NCBI RefSeq assembly: GCF_014696675.1
Contig: NZ_JACJQN010000014.1
Location: 62,001 to 126,000, forward strand
DNA: 64,000 nucleotides
Source of the DNA: Phormidium tenue FACHB-1052
Lineage (GTDB): Bacteria; Cyanobacteriota; Cyanobacteriia; Phormidesmidales; Phormidesmidaceae
Reading direction: 5' to 3'
This document shows, one piece after another, positions 13,996-25,024 of this stretch. Below the pieces are notes generated by a model. That model saw only the letters and a program-made list of their open reading frames with translations. It did no database searches and had not been told where the DNA came from. The position numbers were made by a program, and so were the translations under genes. The stretch's first letter is position 1; every line of letters starts with the position of its first letter.

Positions 13996-15276
13996 TTACG
14001 TTGAGGGCGAAATTTCGACCACATCCACGGGTATTTGGCCCGCCGCGTAGGCCCGCAGGGCGTTGATGATGTGGATATTGGCCTTGGGAAAGGGAAACTC
14101 TTCAATGGTGTCGAGGGTGACCCAGCGCACCTCATCGCACTCGATGGGCTGGGGGTCGCCGCTCAGATGGGTGCAGTGGTGCACGTTGAGGGTGACTTTG
14201 AAGTGCGAATAGGCATGGGTGACGGTGCAGAGGCGATCGCCCACCGCAATCTCAATCCCCAGTTCTTCCTGAATTTCCCGCGCGATACAGGCCTCAATCG
14301 TCTCGCCGGGTTCAATTTTGCCGCCGGGAAACTCCCACAGCCCACCCAGTAGCCCCTCCTGCTTGCGGCGATCGATCAGGATTTGGTCTTGCCCATTCCA
14401 AATCACAGCGACGCCAATTTGCTTGTGGGGCAGGGGGCCTTTGGTTTCTGACATGGGCAGCTCCGATTGAATATTGCGATTATAGGCTTGGCAGTGGGCC
14501 TGCCAGGGGCAGCGATCGCACTGAGGATTGCGCCGCGTACAGAGAGTTGCACCCAGATCCATCAACGCCTGGTTAAAGTCGCGGGGGTTCTGAGGATCCA
14601 GAAGATGCTCCGAAAGCACCCACAGATCCTTTAAGGCTTTGGCTGGCGGCACCGGCAGCGCCACCAGCCGGGCCAGCACCCGCTTCACATTGCCGTCGAG
14701 AATGGCGTGGGGTAGGTTAAACGCCGAACTGAGAATGCCCCCCGCCGTGGTTTTGCCAATACCGGGGAGCGTGGTGATGGTGTCAAAATCTTGGGGAATT
14801 GCGCCCTTATGCTCTGTGGCAATGCGCTGGGCAGCCTGGTGCAGGTTGCGGGCGCGGGCATAGTAGCCTAACCCTTCCCAGGCTTTAAGCACTGTTTGCT
14901 GGTCAGCGGCGGCTAGCGCCTCCACGGTGGGAAACTGCTCTAGCCAGCGCTGGTAGTAGGGCAGCACCGTCTTCACCTGGGTCTGCTGGAGCATAATCTC
15001 CGAGATCCAAATGGCGTAGGGGTGGTCAATATTGCGCCAGGGCAGGGTGCGGCCACAGTCGGCGTACCAGGCCAGCAGCTCTGCTCGCAACGCCTCAACA
15101 GGAAAATCCGGCCAGGGCAGCGTTGCCAGGGCCGGATTGGGGGAAAGAGGGTTTAGCACCCTCCTCGTGCTCGTTGTGTAAGAACCCTCAGTGTCGCGCG
15201 CGGTAGAACGGCGACGGCCAAAGGAGGAATTGAAACTTGGTTGATCCGCTGGGACAGGTGGTTGACTAGGGCTCAC
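13996..15276 (-). CDS. mutY: A/G-specific adenine glycosylase MutY fused to an intact Nudix box
   Basis: This enzyme removes adenine mispaired with 8-oxoguanine. The catalytic Glu is E93 in SEIMLQQTQV, the HhH motif is LPGIGKTTAGG (170-180) and the catalytic Asp is D194 in ILDGNVKRV. The 4Fe-4S cluster ligands C246-x6-C253-x2-C256-x5-C262 are all present. The C-terminal domain (about 285-426) recognises 8-oxoG in the family. Here it also retains a complete Nudix signature, G-x5-E-x7-REIQEELGI (319-341). The start is GTG at 15276; the first ~50 residues are not conserved. It sits 10 bp downstream of the DUF760 gene, probably co-transcribed. Confidence 0.95.
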   Translation of the reverse strand: MSPSQPPVPADQPSFNSSFGRRRSTARDTEGSYTTSTRRVLNPLSPNPALATLPWPDFPVEALRAELLAWYADCGRTLPWRNIDHPYAIWISEIMLQQTQVKTVLPYYQRWLEQFPTVEALAAADQQTVLKAWEGLGYYARARNLHQAAQRIATEHKGAIPQDFDTITTLPGIGKTTAGGILSSAFNLPHAILDGNVKRVLARLVALPVPPAKALKDLWVLSEHLLDPQNPRDFNQALMDLGATLCTRRNPQCDRCPWQAHCQAYNRNIQSELPMSETKGPLPHKQIGVAVIWNGQDQILIDRRKQEGLLGGLWEFPGGKIEPGETIEACIAREIQEELGIEIAVGDRLCTVTHAYSHFKVTLNVHHCTHLSGDPQPIECDEVRWVTLDTIEEFPFPKANIHIINALRAYAAGQIPVDVVEISPST

Positions 15277-15637: not shown

Positions 15638-16135
15638 AGGAGATACCTCGCTTGGCTAGCAGTGTGCGTGCGGCCTGGGTTTATCGAATTGAGCTGGATA
15701 GGGTTATTGTTCCCCATTGGGATTAGAACCCTAACTTTTTGTTGTCTACGTCACTATTGACTATCTACATGGAGTCGCTCAGTCATTCCTGAAACCCATG
15801 TAACTAAGTTAACAGGCTAGGTTTTGTCGCTGGGTAGGCAGAACCGTACCACTGGTGGAGAGGTTTTGCCCTGAAACGGCTGTGGGATGTTTCTCCATAG
15901 ATAGATGTCTGGGTCAACCCTAGGGTTCAAGCTGAAGCAAGACTTTCTACGGGTATTCCATCTAACTGAAAATCCTAATCGAGGTTACTGAGATCAAATG
16001 TTCGGTAGAGCATGGTTTGGGATGAGGATAGAGCCAGAATAATCCCAGGAAGGTTTTAGACAATTTAAGGTAGTCATCATTTTGTCATGAGTGCTATCTG
16101 TCACAATTGCCAGCAATGTCCCCAAAAGCCCCAAA
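15638..16135. other. Divergent intergenic region between DUF760 and egtB
   Basis: About 500 bp with no supportable gene. It must contain the divergent promoters of the DUF760-mutY unit and egtB, but no clear operator is visible. A 7-bp inverted repeat TACATGG...CCATGTA near 15767-15803 is the only fold noticed. Confidence 0.5.
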
Positions 16136-17443
16136 ATGACGCTTTCTTCACCCTTTGCACCATCGTTAGAGGTCTCCTTGGCCACCGCTGTAGTGGCTCA
16201 GTATAGGGCTGTGCGCCACCTCAGCGAAACCCTCTGTGAACCACTTGAGATTGAAGACTATGGTGTGCAGAGCATGGCCGATGTTAGCCCTCCGAAGTGG
16301 CATCTGGCCCACACCACCTGGTTTTTTGAGACCTTTCTTCTGCGCCCCTACCTCGAAGGCTACCGAGAATTTCACCCTGGCTACGGCTATTTGTTTAACT
16401 CCTACTATGAGGCAGTGGGCGATCGCCACCCCCGCCCCCAGCGCGGTCTGCTGTCGCGCCCTACGGTGAAGGAGGTCTACGAGTATCGCGCCCATGTGGA
16501 TGCGGCGATGGAGAGGCTGCTGGGCGATGGTCAAGGACCGGCCCGAGAGGGCGATCGCGCCGACCATCCCACCGTGGCAGAACTGACTAATCTTGGCCTG
16601 CACCACGAGCAGCAGCACCAGGAACTCATCCTCACCGACCTCAAATACAACTTGGCGATCAATCCCCTGCGCCCCGCCTACCGTTCAGATGTCGCATTGG
16701 GACAGGCTGAATCCTCAGCACCGCTGACGTTCATAGATTTTCCTGGCGGCCTCTATGACCTTGGCCATCAAGCTGCTGGGTTTGCCTTTGACAACGAAGG
16801 CCCAGCCCATCGGGTCTATCTCCAAGATTTTGCCTTGGCCAACCGTCTGATCACCAACAGCGAATATCTAGAATTTGTTGCTGACAAGGGCTATCAGACC
16901 GCTGCTCACTGGCTCGCCGAGGGTTGGGGCATGGTGCAGAGCGAAGGTTGGCAAGCGCCTTTGTACTGGGAGCAGCGCGACGGTGAATGGTGGGTGTTTA
17001 CGCTGGGCGGCATGCAGCCCGTGAACCCAGCGGCTCCCGTATGCCACCTCAGCTACTTTGAGGCCGATGCCTTTGCCACTTGGCGGGGCGATCGCCTCCC
17101 CACCGAAGCCGAATGGGAAGTGGCCGCCGCCCAGATGCCCATCCAGGGCAACCTTCTCGCTGCCGACCACCTGCACCCTCAACCAGCCTCTGCATCCCAA
17201 AACCTTCAGCAGCTCTACGGCGATGTTTGGGAATGGACCCAGAGCGCCTACCTGCCCTACCCCGGCTTTCGCCCCGCCCCCGGTGCCGTGGGAGAATATA
17301 ACGGCAAGTTTATGTGCAACCAAATGGTGCTGCGCGGCGGCTCCTGCGTTACTCCACCCGGACACATTCGCCCCAGCTACCGCAATTTCTTTCCGCCCAG
17401 CGCCCGGTGGCAGTTTAGCGGCCTGCGGCTAGCGAAGGGGTAA
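16136..17443 (+). CDS. egtB: Ergothioneine biosynthesis sulfoxide synthase EgtB
   Basis: This iron enzyme joins a thiol donor to the C2 of trimethyl-histidine (hercynine) using oxygen. The 435-residue protein has an N-terminal DinB-like four-helix domain and a C-terminal FGE-sulfatase-like domain. Iron ligands are expected at WHLAH (His56/59 region) and HHEQQHQE (His157 and His161). The C-terminal domain shows GGLYDLG, RLPTEAEWEVAA, WEWTQSAY and VLRGGSC. ATG 16136 is chosen; a GTG at 16091 adds 15 unconserved residues. egtD follows within 115 bp, so the two core ergothioneine steps are clustered. Confidence 0.93.
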   Translation: MTLSSPFAPSLEVSLATAVVAQYRAVRHLSETLCEPLEIEDYGVQSMADVSPPKWHLAHTTWFFETFLLRPYLEGYREFHPGYGYLFNSYYEAVGDRHPRPQRGLLSRPTVKEVYEYRAHVDAAMERLLGDGQGPAREGDRADHPTVAELTNLGLHHEQQHQELILTDLKYNLAINPLRPAYRSDVALGQAESSAPLTFIDFPGGLYDLGHQAAGFAFDNEGPAHRVYLQDFALANRLITNSEYLEFVADKGYQTAAHWLAEGWGMVQSEGWQAPLYWEQRDGEWWVFTLGGMQPVNPAAPVCHLSYFEADAFATWRGDRLPTEAEWEVAAAQMPIQGNLLAADHLHPQPASASQNLQQLYGDVWEWTQSAYLPYPGFRPAPGAVGEYNGKFMCNQMVLRGGSCVTPPGHIRPSYRNFFPPSARWQFSGLRLAKG

Positions 17444-17490
17444 GGGGGGGTAGGGGTTAAGGGGGTGATGGAGCTTTTAACCCTCGATCA

Positions 17491-17557
17491 CTCCCCTACT
17501 CCCTACTCCCTACCCATCTCTCCCACTCCCCTATCTCCCCCACTCCCCCACCTCCCC
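17491..17557. repeat. C-rich heptamer-like run abutting the egtD start
   Basis: The run CTCCCCTACTCCCTACTCCC and its variants continue directly into the egtD ATG, replacing any purine-rich ribosome-binding site. It belongs to the same low-complexity class as the run before nrtD. Confidence 0.6.
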
Positions 17558-18529
17558 ATGCCCCCCACCTCTCAAACCAAGCCCTCTCCCGTCAAGCTCT
17601 ACGACTTTCACCCACCCGTGGAAGACTTTCGCAGCGCCGTGCTGCGGGGTTTGAGCCAGCCGCAGAAGACCCTTTCTCCTAAGTTTCTCTATGACAAGCG
17701 GGGGTCGGAGCTGTTTGATGCTATCTGCCAACTGCCGGAGTATTACCTGACGCGCACCGAGATGGCCATTTTGCAGACCCATGCGGAGGCTATTGCGGCG
17801 GCTCTAGACCACCGCGTCTTGGTTGAACTGGGCAGCGGCAGCAGCCAAAAAATTCGCATTTTGCTGAATGCTGCGCCTCAGGTAACAACCTACGTGGGAG
17901 TCGATATTTCGCGGCAGCATTTGCAGGAGGCCTGCGCGGCGCTGATGGGAGATTTTGGGGGGCTGGATGCGATCGCCGTTTGCGCTGACTACACCCAACC
18001 CCTGCCCATCGCCGCCATTCCTGAGCTGCAGAACCGCCCCACCATCGGCTTTTTTCCCGGTTCTTCCATTGGCAATTTAGAGCCTACCGAGGTGATCACT
18101 TTCCTCAAAACTGTGGCGGTGCTGGGCGACTTAATCGTGGGGGTAGATCTTAAGAAATCCCCTACCATTCTCGAACCCGCCTACGACGATGCCCAAGGGG
18201 TTTCAGCAGCCTTTGCCCTGAATGTGCTGGAAAGGATCAACCGAGAACTGGGGGCCGATTTTGACCTGAGCCAGTTTGAGTATCGGGCGCACTACAACGA
18301 GGCCCAGGGGCGGATCGAGATGGCGATCGCTAGCCTCTGCGATCAAACGGTGCATCTGGGCGATACAGCGATTGCGTTCAAAGCGGGCGAAACTCTACGC
18401 ACTGAGCATTCCTATAAATACACGGTGGATGAGTTTCAGCTCTTGGCAATGGAAGCGGGTTTTCAGCCGGTGCAGGTGTGGACTGATGAGCAGCAGCTCT
18501 TTAGCCTGCACCATCTAAAGCAGATTTAG
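17558..18529 (+). CDS. egtD: L-histidine N-alpha-methyltransferase EgtD
   Basis: It makes hercynine by three SAM-dependent methylations of histidine, supplying EgtB. The 323-residue protein is the usual length and has YDKRGSELFDAICQLPEYYLTRTE (residues 45-68, substrate-binding region). The SAM motif VELGSGSSQK is at 89-98, and VGVDISR and GFFPGSSIGN are also present. ATG 17558 gives the canonical N-terminus; an upstream ATG at 17465 would add 31 residues translated from the C-rich repeat. A MITE lies 28 bp after the stop. Confidence 0.94.
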   Translation: MPPTSQTKPSPVKLYDFHPPVEDFRSAVLRGLSQPQKTLSPKFLYDKRGSELFDAICQLPEYYLTRTEMAILQTHAEAIAAALDHRVLVELGSGSSQKIRILLNAAPQVTTYVGVDISRQHLQEACAALMGDFGGLDAIAVCADYTQPLPIAAIPELQNRPTIGFFPGSSIGNLEPTEVITFLKTVAVLGDLIVGVDLKKSPTILEPAYDDAQGVSAAFALNVLERINRELGADFDLSQFEYRAHYNEAQGRIEMAIASLCDQTVHLGDTAIAFKAGETLRTEHSYKYTVDEFQLLAMEAGFQPVQVWTDEQQLFSLHHLKQI

Positions 18530-18557
18530 GGCGCTGGCCTATAGAAAAAACTTTTCT

Positions 18558-18707
18558 GGCGTTGCTGATCAGCGGTATGATTTGCCCCCCTAGCCCCCCA
18601 ATTCTGGGGGGAACCGGACAACTTCAAAGTCCCCCAAATTTGGGGGGTTGGGGGGCCGATGCAGCAACTGTTGCTTTTGCAGATTCATTCCTCAATTCAT
18701 CAACGCC
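18558..18707. mobile_element. MITE copy 1 (150 bp, 8-bp target duplication)
   Basis: The element begins GGCGTTGCTGATCAG and ends TTCATCAACGCC, with terminal inverted repeats of about 11 bp. It is flanked by the identical octamer ACTTTTCT (18550-18557 and 18708-18715). The interior holds runs of C and G (CCCCCCTAGCCCCCCAATT against AATTTGGGGGGTTGGGGGG) that fold back. No transposase is encoded. Two further copies are at 36945-37093 and 53210-53358. Confidence 0.85.
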
Positions 18708-18784
18708 ACTTTTCTACAGCAAGCAATGCGTTGCGGAACTGTAATCCATTCGCGATCGCAGCAAACACCAGTGGTAGGATGCTA

Positions 18785-18872
18785 TCAAGCTAGGGGTGTC
18801 CGAGGAATCGGACTGAGATCATACCCTCAGAACCTGACCTGGTTGATACCAGCGGAGGAAAGCGTTGCTTGA
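18785..18872 (+). promoter_or_regulatory. TPP riboswitch (THI box) upstream of a sodium:solute symporter
   Basis: The P1 stem TCAAGC (18785-18790) pairs with GCTTGA (18867-18872). Core elements are in order: CTAGGGGTG, hairpin GTCCGA-GGAA-TCGGAC, CTGAGATCATACCC, and GAACCTGACCTGGTT...ATACCAGCGGAGGAAAGCG. All match the thiamin pyrophosphate aptamer consensus. A second hairpin, CGTTCTGGA/TCTAGAACG at 18903-18928, follows. It lies 180 bp upstream of the symporter ATG. Confidence 0.93.
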
Positions 18873-19052
18873 GGTCACGCACCGAAACGACGAGCCTATA
18901 GGCGTTCTGGACTTGTAGATCTAGAACGATTAGTGATGTATCGGCATGGCCTGATGCTTGCTAGCTGTAGCGCTTGTTGTTCGGTTTGACCCGCCCTCAC
19001 CCGCCCAGGAATCTCCTCTAGCGCCACACCGTTGTTTGTGAGGTGCGTTTCT

Positions 19053-20558
19053 ATGACCCTTGGTGCGACAGCGATCGCTGTGATTTTGATTACGGCGGCT
19101 AGCTTTACCCTGCTTGGGTTGCTCCAGGCCAGCCGCCACACCATTAGCCTCGAAGACTACATGGTGAGCCGCAATCGGGTGGGCACCGGCATGGCTCTGG
19201 CGACCATTGTGGCTTCGGCCATGGGCGCTTGGATTTTGTTTAGTCCGCCGGAGGTGGGGGCCACTAGCGGCATCGCCGGGATTGTTGGCTACTGCATTGG
19301 CCAGGCGACCCCGGCAGCGCTGTTTGCCTTTATGGGCACGCGTATGCGGTTTCTCATGCCTAAGGGCCACTCATTAAATGAGTATGTGCTGCACCGCTTT
19401 GGTAAGGCCATGTATCGGCTGACCCTGGCGATCGTGGTGTTTTACATGTTTGTGTATTTGGCGGCAGAGCTAACGGCAGTCGCTAAAGCCGTCGAACTCA
19501 TGGCCGGGGTACCCCTCTGGCTCACGGCTCTGCTGGTGATTAGCGCTGTGTTTATCTACACTATAGTAGGCGGCCTGGAAGCAACGATTTTTACCGATGC
19601 AATTCAGTTTGCGGTGATTGTGCCGCTGCTGCTGCTGAGCTTTGGCATTGCGGTGTTTGCTTTGGGCGGCTGGGGAAATGCGATCGCCCCCGTCATCCAG
19701 ACCGCCCCAGAGCTGCTGACCCTGGCCAACGGCCCCGGCATCAAATTTGGGGCGACGTTGGTGATTGCGGTGATTGCCGCCGAAATGTTTAACCAGACCA
19801 ACTGGCAACGCATCTACGCTTGCAAGAGCGATCAGGTAGTGCGGCGATCGTTCTTAGGATCGTTCTTAGTGATCTTGCCTATGCTGTTCATTGCGGGGCT
19901 GCTGGGCATTTTGGCTATGAACTTTGGCTTCAACGACGATCGCGCCTTTTTCTCACTAATTCAAGCGCTGAACCTTCCCGGCTGGGTGAGCATTGCAGTG
20001 CTGGTGCTGGTGCTGGCCCTAGTAATGAGCAGTCTGGACTCGCTGCTGAATGGCATTGCCAGCGTGTTTACGCCCGAGCTGCTGCGCTTTTTCCCCGATC
20101 AATCTACCAACGGCATTCTGCGGCTGAGCCGGGTGTTGACGGTGGCCGTGGGCATTCCCGCCATTCTGATCGCCTCGCGGGGCTACAACGTGCTGTACCT
20201 GTTTTTACTGGCCGATCTGGTCTGTGCCGGGGCGTTGTTTCCGGTGCTGTTTGGGCTATATTCCAGACGACTGACGGGGACGATGGCGTTTTGGAGTGCG
20301 GTGGTTGCGATCGCAACCGGTGCCCTGTTCTTTCCCCGGCCCGACTTTAGCCCCTGGAATGGGCTGCCCTTTGGAGGCGATCTGTTGGTCAGCTTTGCCG
20401 CCCCCATCGTGGTGTCGACGCTGATTTGCTTGCTCTGGATCCAGATCAAGGCCCAGGGCGGTAAGACGGAAGCGTTTGACTTCGGCATTCTCAGCCGCGA
20501 CATCCGCGCCTATGGGGAGGGAGATACTTTTTCTGTGGGGAAGTTGCCCAACAGGTAG
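19053..20558 (+). CDS. Sodium:solute symporter family protein, probable thiamin or thiamin-precursor transporter
   Basis: A 501-residue membrane protein with about 12-13 hydrophobic helices fits the SSS family (LEDYMVSRNRVGTGMALATI, IYTIVGGLEATIFTDAIQF, MFNQTNWQRIYACKS, VMSSLDSLLNGIASVF). The GLEA..TDAIQ region is the family's sodium-site signature. The ATG at 19053 has GTGAGGTG upstream at a spacing of about 8; the TTG at 19032 was rejected. The TPP riboswitch in its leader predicts repression by thiamin pyrophosphate. Import of thiamin, HMP or a related pyrimidine is therefore the best guess. Substrate specificity is an inference from regulation, not from residues. Confidence 0.85.
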   Translation: MTLGATAIAVILITAASFTLLGLLQASRHTISLEDYMVSRNRVGTGMALATIVASAMGAWILFSPPEVGATSGIAGIVGYCIGQATPAALFAFMGTRMRFLMPKGHSLNEYVLHRFGKAMYRLTLAIVVFYMFVYLAAELTAVAKAVELMAGVPLWLTALLVISAVFIYTIVGGLEATIFTDAIQFAVIVPLLLLSFGIAVFALGGWGNAIAPVIQTAPELLTLANGPGIKFGATLVIAVIAAEMFNQTNWQRIYACKSDQVVRRSFLGSFLVILPMLFIAGLLGILAMNFGFNDDRAFFSLIQALNLPGWVSIAVLVLVLALVMSSLDSLLNGIASVFTPELLRFFPDQSTNGILRLSRVLTVAVGIPAILIASRGYNVLYLFLLADLVCAGALFPVLFGLYSRRLTGTMAFWSAVVAIATGALFFPRPDFSPWNGLPFGGDLLVSFAAPIVVSTLICLLWIQIKAQGGKTEAFDFGILSRDIRAYGEGDTFSVGKLPNR

Positions 20559-22951: not shown

Positions 22952-23382
22952 TTTTAAGATACTCCGTGCGACAAAATCTTTCGACAAAACTTTCCGTAAG
23001 AACAGTAATATCTATGACTAGTAAATAAAAGCGGTAGCTATACTGCTCTCAACTATCTAGACTGTGGAACTCGATTGGTTACTGCTTTCGTAGCTGGCTT
23101 TTCTATCCTTTTTGCGCTCTATGCTCAGAGAGGCTCCATGACCTCAGCTGATAGCGTCGCCACTCCTGTAGAAAAAGTCAGCGGTAACGCTAAGTGCATC
23201 CTAAGAACTACGTGATGCCGCTTCCTCTGACTGAAGAACTAAGTTAGTTAGCGCTTTACCTGTCAGTAGGAGTATTTATGGCTAACGGTTTTTGTCTGCG
23301 TCCTGACCGTAGGGCGTCGGTACGCTCTGTGAGGAACCATAACTAATTCGCGCTTCCCCTAGATATCAGTGGTACGATGCCT
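22952..23382. other. Divergent intergenic region upstream of the thiC riboswitch
   Basis: About 430 bp with no supportable gene. It must contain promoters for the DUF4383 gene and for the riboswitch-thiC transcript. No operator or known RNA was recognised before the aptamer. Confidence 0.45.
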
Positions 23383-23472
23383 GCAAGCTAGGGGTGTCCG
23401 ACTCGCATCGGACTGAGATCATACCCTCAGAACCTGACCTGGTTAATACCAGCGGAGGAAAGCGTTGCTTGA
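23383..23472 (+). promoter_or_regulatory. TPP riboswitch (THI box) upstream of thiC
   Basis: P1 is formed by CAAGC and GCTTG at the ends. The order is CTAGGGGTG, hairpin GTCCGA-CTCGCA-TCGGAC, CTGAGATCATACCC, then GAACCTGACCTGGTT, ATACCAGCGGAGGAAAGCG. The core is almost identical to the aptamer at 18785-18872, pointing to duplication of the control element. It is expected to repress thiC when thiamin pyrophosphate is abundant. Confidence 0.95.
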
Positions 23473-23625
23473 GGTTATCAGCCGAAACAACGGATAGATT
23501 GACGTTCTGGCGCTATGCCAGGGCATTGGGTGAAGATTCAGCAGATGGCTGAGCTTTGCTTGCGATCGCTCCACCCTGTTCGGCCTTACCCATCCTCACT
23601 TACCCAACGTGATCTACCAGGCAAG

Positions 23626-23648
23626 ACCTCTAGCGCCACACCAGAGGT
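23626..23648 (+). promoter_or_regulatory. Ribosome-binding-site-sequestering hairpin of the thiC riboswitch
   Basis: ACCTCT (23626-23631) pairs perfectly with AGAGGT (23643-23648), which contains the thiC Shine-Dalgarno AGAGG six bases before the ATG. The loop AGCGCCACACC contains AGCGCCA, complementary to TGGCGCT at 23508-23514 just after the aptamer. This would make a competing long-range pairing. The 16-nt run CCTCTAGCGCCACACC recurs at 19015-19030 before the symporter. Confidence 0.7.
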
Positions 23649-23650
23649 AA

Positions 23651-25024
<1,374 letters not shown>

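Follow-up and report, generated by a model that had tools for sequence, protein, structure and literature searches.

The 64,000-nucleotide stretch of the Phormidium tenue FACHB-1052 genome analysed here (the window) encodes an SSS-family symporter that is likely a TPP-repressed, Na+-coupled importer of HMP (the pyrimidine half of thiamin), and perhaps of its amino precursor too, of the ThiV/SSSP kind. This kind of transporter is already known; new are the phylum and the setting, in which the symporter gene and thiC each follow a predicted TPP riboswitch. The locus consists of the following features:

18782..18877, + strand: TPP riboswitch aptamer (THI element) of the symporter gene (Rfam RF00059, 67.7 bits, E 3.8e-11, model positions 1-105)
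19053..20558, + strand: SSS-family symporter, ThiV/SSSP-like, predicted HMP:Na+ symporter of 501 aa (Pfam SSF, structural model, fold matches, dN/dS)
23380..23477, + strand: TPP riboswitch aptamer of thiC, sister of the symporter's (Rfam RF00059, 69 bits, E 1.8e-11, model positions 1-105)
23654..25024, + strand: thiC, phosphomethylpyrimidine synthase (TIGR00190, 715 bits versus a cut-off of 460)

Both aptamers match RF00059 over its full length and exceed its gathering score of 54.3, and the RF00059 search of the 5.82 Mb genome gave no TPP riboswitch beyond these two, which lie 4.6 kb apart with that of thiC downstream. Both are predicted to bind TPP and to control the gene that follows. The first-pass annotation had called the thiC riboswitch almost identical to that of the symporter, which is fair for the aptamer region, where 104 nt aligned without gaps are 87% identical, but not for the whole leaders (74%); a second shared block of 26 nt near the Shine-Dalgarno sequence is 85% identical. 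Directly upstream of the riboswitch-symporter unit lie egtB and egtD of ergothioneine biosynthesis (window 16091-18529, + strand), and on the opposite strand a single frame (13996-15276) combines a MutY-type adenine glycosylase with a C-terminal MutT-like NUDIX domain.

Orthologues of the symporter are encoded in 51 of the 63 genomes of the window's family; a 52nd match (G027) was rejected as a paralogue with 26% identity. A TPP riboswitch lies at most 500 nt upstream in 50 of the 51 carriers, the aptamer match ending 7-339 nt before the protein match, and 48 of these 50 aptamers score above the gathering score (those of G053 and G056 fall below it). The one carrier without an upstream TPP match, G001, is cut at the contig end. 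Such conservation excludes a chance linkage of riboswitch and symporter, and it bears out the full TPP aptamer (67.7 bits in the window) that had been noted ahead of the gene from the letters alone. The order TPP-SSS-thiC within 700 nt and with a single riboswitch was found in 24 of the 51 carriers, and a second riboswitch before thiC in the same stretch in 10, the window included; in two, thiC follows further downstream and lacks a separate riboswitch. Twelve carriers have thiC at another place in the assembly (a riboswitch accompanies it in 11, G001 counted, and none was seen in one), and in three (G021, G038, G041), all fragmented assemblies, it was not found. A single riboswitch covering both genes, as in the 24 genomes, is also what would be expected if the symporter were a passenger with an unrelated substrate, caught between thiC and the riboswitch that serves it. 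We regard this as highly improbable, as the two genes of the window have separate riboswitches and all 16 non-cyanobacterial loci have a riboswitch and no thiC in the stretch examined.

Three cyanobacterial loci from outside the window's family or genus (L183, L186, L198) have the order TPP-SSS-TPP-thiC, in which about 8 nt separate the end of the second aptamer match from the thiC match; the doubled riboswitch is therefore not confined to the window's genus. In G022, a partial second symporter copy (L116:7011-8021, residues 161-497, 90% identity) lies between the intact copy and thiC, and Nodosilinea nodulosa PCC 7104 (L158) has a partial copy in the same arrangement; no second riboswitch was found at the partial copy of either locus. 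In G021, the second TPP leader runs not into thiC but into a frame that by eye is transposase-like (L117:10500-12200).

In a sample of 386 genomes from across the phylum, each at least 90% complete, a search at E<=1e-40 detected the symporter gene in four, one of them the genome of the window. The phylogenomic test of SSS genes with THI boxes that the first-pass annotation had proposed is thus positive where the gene occurs, the gene itself being restricted. By symporter protein, strains of Nodosilinea and Leptolyngbya are the closest named relatives among the 80 best of 333, and by this measure the window comes from a filamentous cyanobacterium, most likely a Nodosilinea. Cultured carriers include N. 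nodulosa PCC 7104 and two strains of Leptolyngbya sp., PCC 7375 and PCC 6406. At the margin of the family or beyond it, none of the TPP matches of the cyanobacterial loci L192, L195 and L196 reaches the gathering score, and at L219 no TPP match was obtained at E<=0.5.

Control by the riboswitch is probably exerted at translation. The leaders contain the following elements:

18789..18796, + strand: GCTAGGGG in the 5' strand of the aptamer, which may pair with the element downstream (sequence, complementarity survey)
19015..19022, + strand: leader element CCTCTAGC, candidate switch element, complementary to GCTAGGGG (survey of leaders)
19040..19045, + strand: Shine-Dalgarno-like GAGGTG of the symporter gene (sequence; the local fold pairs it with GCGCCAC just behind CCTCTAGC)
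23627..23634, + strand: CCTCTAGC, identical element in the thiC leader (leader survey, leader comparison, fold)
23644..23647, + strand: Shine-Dalgarno-like GAGG of thiC (sequence)

The element sits about 30 nt (symporter leader) or 19 nt (thiC leader) before the start codon and is complementary to the aptamer 5' strand over 8 bp in both leaders. An element of this kind is found at that place in 36 of 48 cyanobacterial leaders, compared with a mean of 2.0 and a maximum of 7 in 200 shuffles and a mean of 1.1 and a maximum of 5 for random 9-mers drawn from the same leaders; the 48 were thinned from 80 and are still related by descent. Its variants CCCCTAGC, TCCCTAGC and CTCCTAGT preserve the pairing. 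Taken one by one, the leaders that have the element give weak evidence (p about 0.005 to 0.15 each), and the complementarity survey did not find the element in the seven non-cyanobacterial leaders that it reached.

We propose that, at low TPP, the leader element CCUCUAGC would pair with the aptamer 5' strand (partner stretch GCUAGGGG) and leave the Shine-Dalgarno sequence open, and that binding of TPP would release the stretch ahead of the start codon, which would then mask the Shine-Dalgarno sequence. Folding gives this exact switch good support at thiC but no more than partial support at the symporter. For thiC, pairing between the element and the aptamer 5' strand has a probability of about 0.95, and the element alone folds into a local hairpin (ACCUCU/AGAGGU) over the Shine-Dalgarno sequence. 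The minimum-energy fold of the symporter leader cut at the start codon has six of the eight element-aptamer pairs (probability 0.58); this pairing drops to 0.11 when the leader is folded to 19060 and to 0 at 19075, where the partner of GCTAGGGG is instead the beginning of the coding region, as is also the case at 19060. The loss of the predicted pairing in the longer symporter fold and the 12 of 48 leaders without the element speak against the proposed switch. Relative to its composition the symporter leader is unusually stable (z -4.7) and the thiC leader is not (z -1.5).

Searches for intrinsic terminators gave two matches in 18530-19100, upstream of the aptamer and inside the gene, neither convincing, and for the thiC leader an unconvincing match at 23537, one of 4 where 2.5 were expected. 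The want of a good terminator and the leader-element evidence together make translational control likely. Gene conversion between the two leaders was rejected: in 17 of the 17 genomes for which our script located both leaders, each leader is closer to its orthologue (similarity 0.75-0.98) than to its neighbour (0.56-0.76), so the two are old paralogues and not recent copies.

The start of the symporter was placed at ATG 19053, which is common to most of 19 aligned sequences (the ORF list opens at TTG 19032). The protein matches Pfam SSF (PF00474) with 95.9 bits (gathering cut-off 22.8) and NCBIfam TIGR00813 (sss) with 130.4 bits, below the curated cut-off of 184, and misses the equivalog cut-offs of PutP (65 versus 515.5 bits) and PanF (44.2 versus 328.05 bits). 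The gene is under purifying selection, with dN/dS of 0.07-0.14 to five orthologues that were compared without gaps. Its AlphaFold model (mean pLDDT 89.3, pTM 0.87) matches CHT1 (9bim; Z 38.5, rmsd 2.8, 468 residues), DUR3 (9vim; Z 36.1) and SiaT (5nva; Z 35.9, rmsd 2.9, 449 residues). The symporter thus shares its fold over nearly the whole length with solved SSS structures (CHT1, DUR3, SiaT, SGLT), but these are only about 16-21% identical and have other substrates. Ser is found at 326 in 47 of 47 aligned members and Ser or Thr at 327 in all 47, aligned to the SSL of vSGLT; we take this position to be that of the Na2-site serines of vSGLT type, and coupling to Na+ is predicted for the symporter.

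For HMP/thiamin symporters a residue pattern has been given in SiaT numbering (PMC11452348): Tyr 78 in TM2, an acidic residue at 139 in TM3 (Asp in the legend) and Phe 254 in TM6, followed by His or a polar residue. In our symporter Y80, E139 and F246, the last followed by N (38) or H (9), are fixed in 47 of 47 aligned members, the residues being mapped to the SiaT numbers by motif context and the vSGLT alignment and not by a residue-level SiaT alignment. The underlying alignment (A2) holds 46 of the 80 fetched loci, picked for spread, with L228 left out. A wider alignment of 23 clade rows has Y80 and E139 in all 23 and F246 in 20, the three haloarchaeal rows having Ile or Val at this position, and among 21 SSF paralogues E139 occurs in none, Y80 in two and F246 in one. 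The Glu at 139 where the legend gives Asp, and the haloarchaeal Ile or Val at 246, count against an HMP importer.

In a tree of 44 SSF proteins, a branch with 100/100 support separates all 23 rows labelled TPP or tenA from the 21 paralogues, which were fetched as loci from the same genomes and records. Two of the labels are loose, those of L219 (no TPP match) and L237 (neither TPP nor tenA), both of which are counted among the 23; L236 and L239 were outside the Rfam scan. No TPP riboswitch was detected within a flank of roughly 1.5 kb at any of the 20 paralogues scanned (of 21). Riboswitch linkage and the conserved stretches GAWIL, GY, AELT and F[NH]Q together form a signature of the clade, a sequence definition for a group of proteins whose plasmid relatives in several cases carry the annotation 'sodium:proline symporter'.

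Relatives outside the cyanobacteria (44-50% identity, among the best 80 of 333 retained from the scan of named genomes) derive from Chloroflexota (SAR202 among them), Kiritimatiellae and Opitutae. Each of the 16 loci fetched from these groups has a TPP riboswitch, which is directly upstream of the symporter in 15. In L234 it heads an operon of thiE, thiM, a gene for a thiL-like AIRS protein, tenA, the SSS gene, thiW and an ABC ATPase gene, with thiD nearby. L235 has two divergent riboswitches, one facing the SSS gene and the other an FAD-dependent oxidoreductase of the DAO family that we read as ThiO-like. Plasmid relatives were found in nine records (36-42% identity), and neighbours were examined in four: tenA adjoins the symporter in Haloferax; the Halobaculum gene lies beside tenA, a second TenA-family gene, thiD and a thiamin-phosphate synthase gene; Haladaptatus (L237) has neither a TPP riboswitch nor a thi neighbour; and the Halomonas relative has a TPP riboswitch and no thi gene among the neighbours tested. 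The latter falls inside the TPP/tenA clade on a long branch. The absence of a TPP match in L219 and L237, the matches below the gathering score in L192, L195 and L196 and the neighbours in Halomonas weigh against an HMP importer. No virus-borne symporter copies were found in viral_contigs, and the 'phages' set gave two distant SSS matches only (27% and 23%).

The first-pass annotation had predicted a transporter for thiamin or HMP. A place in the thiamin pathway is supported by the riboswitch linkage in several phyla, the arrangement with thiC and the thi-salvage neighbours of some distant relatives; of the two substrates HMP is favoured and thiamin less so. We surveyed 18 distant carriers (16 non-cyanobacterial and two cyanobacterial MAGs) and six cyanobacteria for thiamin-pathway genes: thiD and TMP-TENI/thiE were present in 24 of 24 genomes, as was thiL (23 over the cut-off; 18 in the distant carriers, 17 over the cut-off). 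A thiC match was absent in 17 of the 18 distant carriers, MAGs of which the completeness is not stated, and chance loss of thiC alone is unlikely because these 17 assemblies all hold other thi genes. Thiamin pyrophosphokinase (TPK) was found in 0 of 37 genomes (35 carriers, two non-carriers) by a search that, as a control, had matches in 7 of 14 known genomes. Such a gene content is typical of an HMP auxotroph that would import the pyrimidine and finish the vitamin itself, and thiD, thiE and thiL kept, thiC mostly missing and TPK not found together argue for HMP over thiamin.

A TPP-controlled symporter that takes up whole thiamin, either alone or equally with HMP, seems rather unlikely to us. 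Thiamin transporters are also found under TPP riboswitches (PMC3766115), PMC4260697 leaves it open whether SSSP takes thiamin or HMP, and imported thiamin may be used through ThiK and ThiL. Besides the lack of TPK matches and the retention of thiD, thiE and thiL, this reading is opposed by a SAR11 strain with ThiV, which is described as taking up HMP specifically and as unable to use exogenous thiamin (PMC11452348). It is also opposed by the L234 operon, which already holds a thiazole kinase and ThiW, so that its missing piece would be the pyrimidine.

A pyrimidine degradation product, aminomethyl-HMP or its formyl form, fed to TenA is a still less probable substrate, despite TenA-family genes in 36 of 37 genomes and a tenA adjoining the symporter in two haloarchaea and present in the L234 operon. 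The window genome has its TenA-family matches on contigs other than that of the symporter, and the substrate measured in SAR11 cells was HMP (PMC11452348).

For the HMP importer that we favour, we envisage that when TPP is scarce the symporter would be made together with ThiC, and the cell would both make HMP-P and scavenge HMP. ThiD and ThiE would turn HMP into thiamin phosphate, which ThiL would convert to TPP. The presence of thiC in 48 of the 51 family carriers, which need no HMP import, is a point against this substrate, and because of it the benefit of an importer can only be guessed: it might save the ThiC reaction or recapture leaked HMP. We give about even chances to the broader idea that filamentous HMP-producing cyanobacteria run synthesis and Na+-driven scavenging or recapture as one TPP-regulated unit of riboswitch, symporter and thiC; in Nodosilinea this unit would be divided between two related leaders.

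The symporter would work like ThiV/SSSP and is probably a member of that group. It resembles ThiV of SAR11 (SAR11_0811; SSSP in eukaryotic algae; PMC11452348, PMC4260697) in family, in the TPP riboswitch upstream, in the scarcity of thiC among distant carriers and, as far as the mapping by context goes, in the Tyr / acidic / Phe-(His or polar) pattern. It differs in that SAR11 is an HMP auxotroph, whereas most cyanobacterial carriers have thiC, often adjoining the symporter gene. HMP uptake by ThiV was measured at the level of SAR11 cells (PMC11452348), the link of ThiV to a TPP riboswitch is credited to Rodionov 2002 as cited in PMC4260697, and thiV is listed among the TPP-controlled genes of metagenomes (PMC2211319).

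According to a 2013 survey of 14 cyanobacterial genomes, the TPP riboswitch occurs only at thiC and no transporter is TPP-controlled (PMC3766115). The locus described here shares the RF00059 aptamer before thiC with those genomes and differs in having the symporter as a further gene predicted to be TPP-controlled. The same survey had already noted Chloroflexi auxotrophs with several TPP-controlled transporters. In the open literature, mainly as titles and abstract openings, we found no report of a TPP-controlled transporter of this kind in cyanobacteria, and the excerpts of PMC10881298, PMC12442306 and PMC12637900 report none.

Cyanobacteria have been described as producers of B1 and HMP (e.g. 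PMC12442306). If the broader idea is true, cyanobacteria of this type would be consumers or recapturers of dissolved HMP and not just net producers, and would be open to HMP analogues such as bacimethrin, the entry of which via ThiV and CytX is a speculation in PMC12637900. With a predicted HMP importer under its own TPP riboswitch in cultured strains, HMP uptake by prototrophic phototrophs is directly testable.

Another SSS symporter in the window's genus may be a guanidine-linked transporter: in G044, a guanidine-I riboswitch (L257:2863-2996, - strand, 81.5 bits) overlaps the 5' end of an SSF symporter frame (L257:1270-2934, - strand), the true start of which is, given this overlap, probably further downstream.
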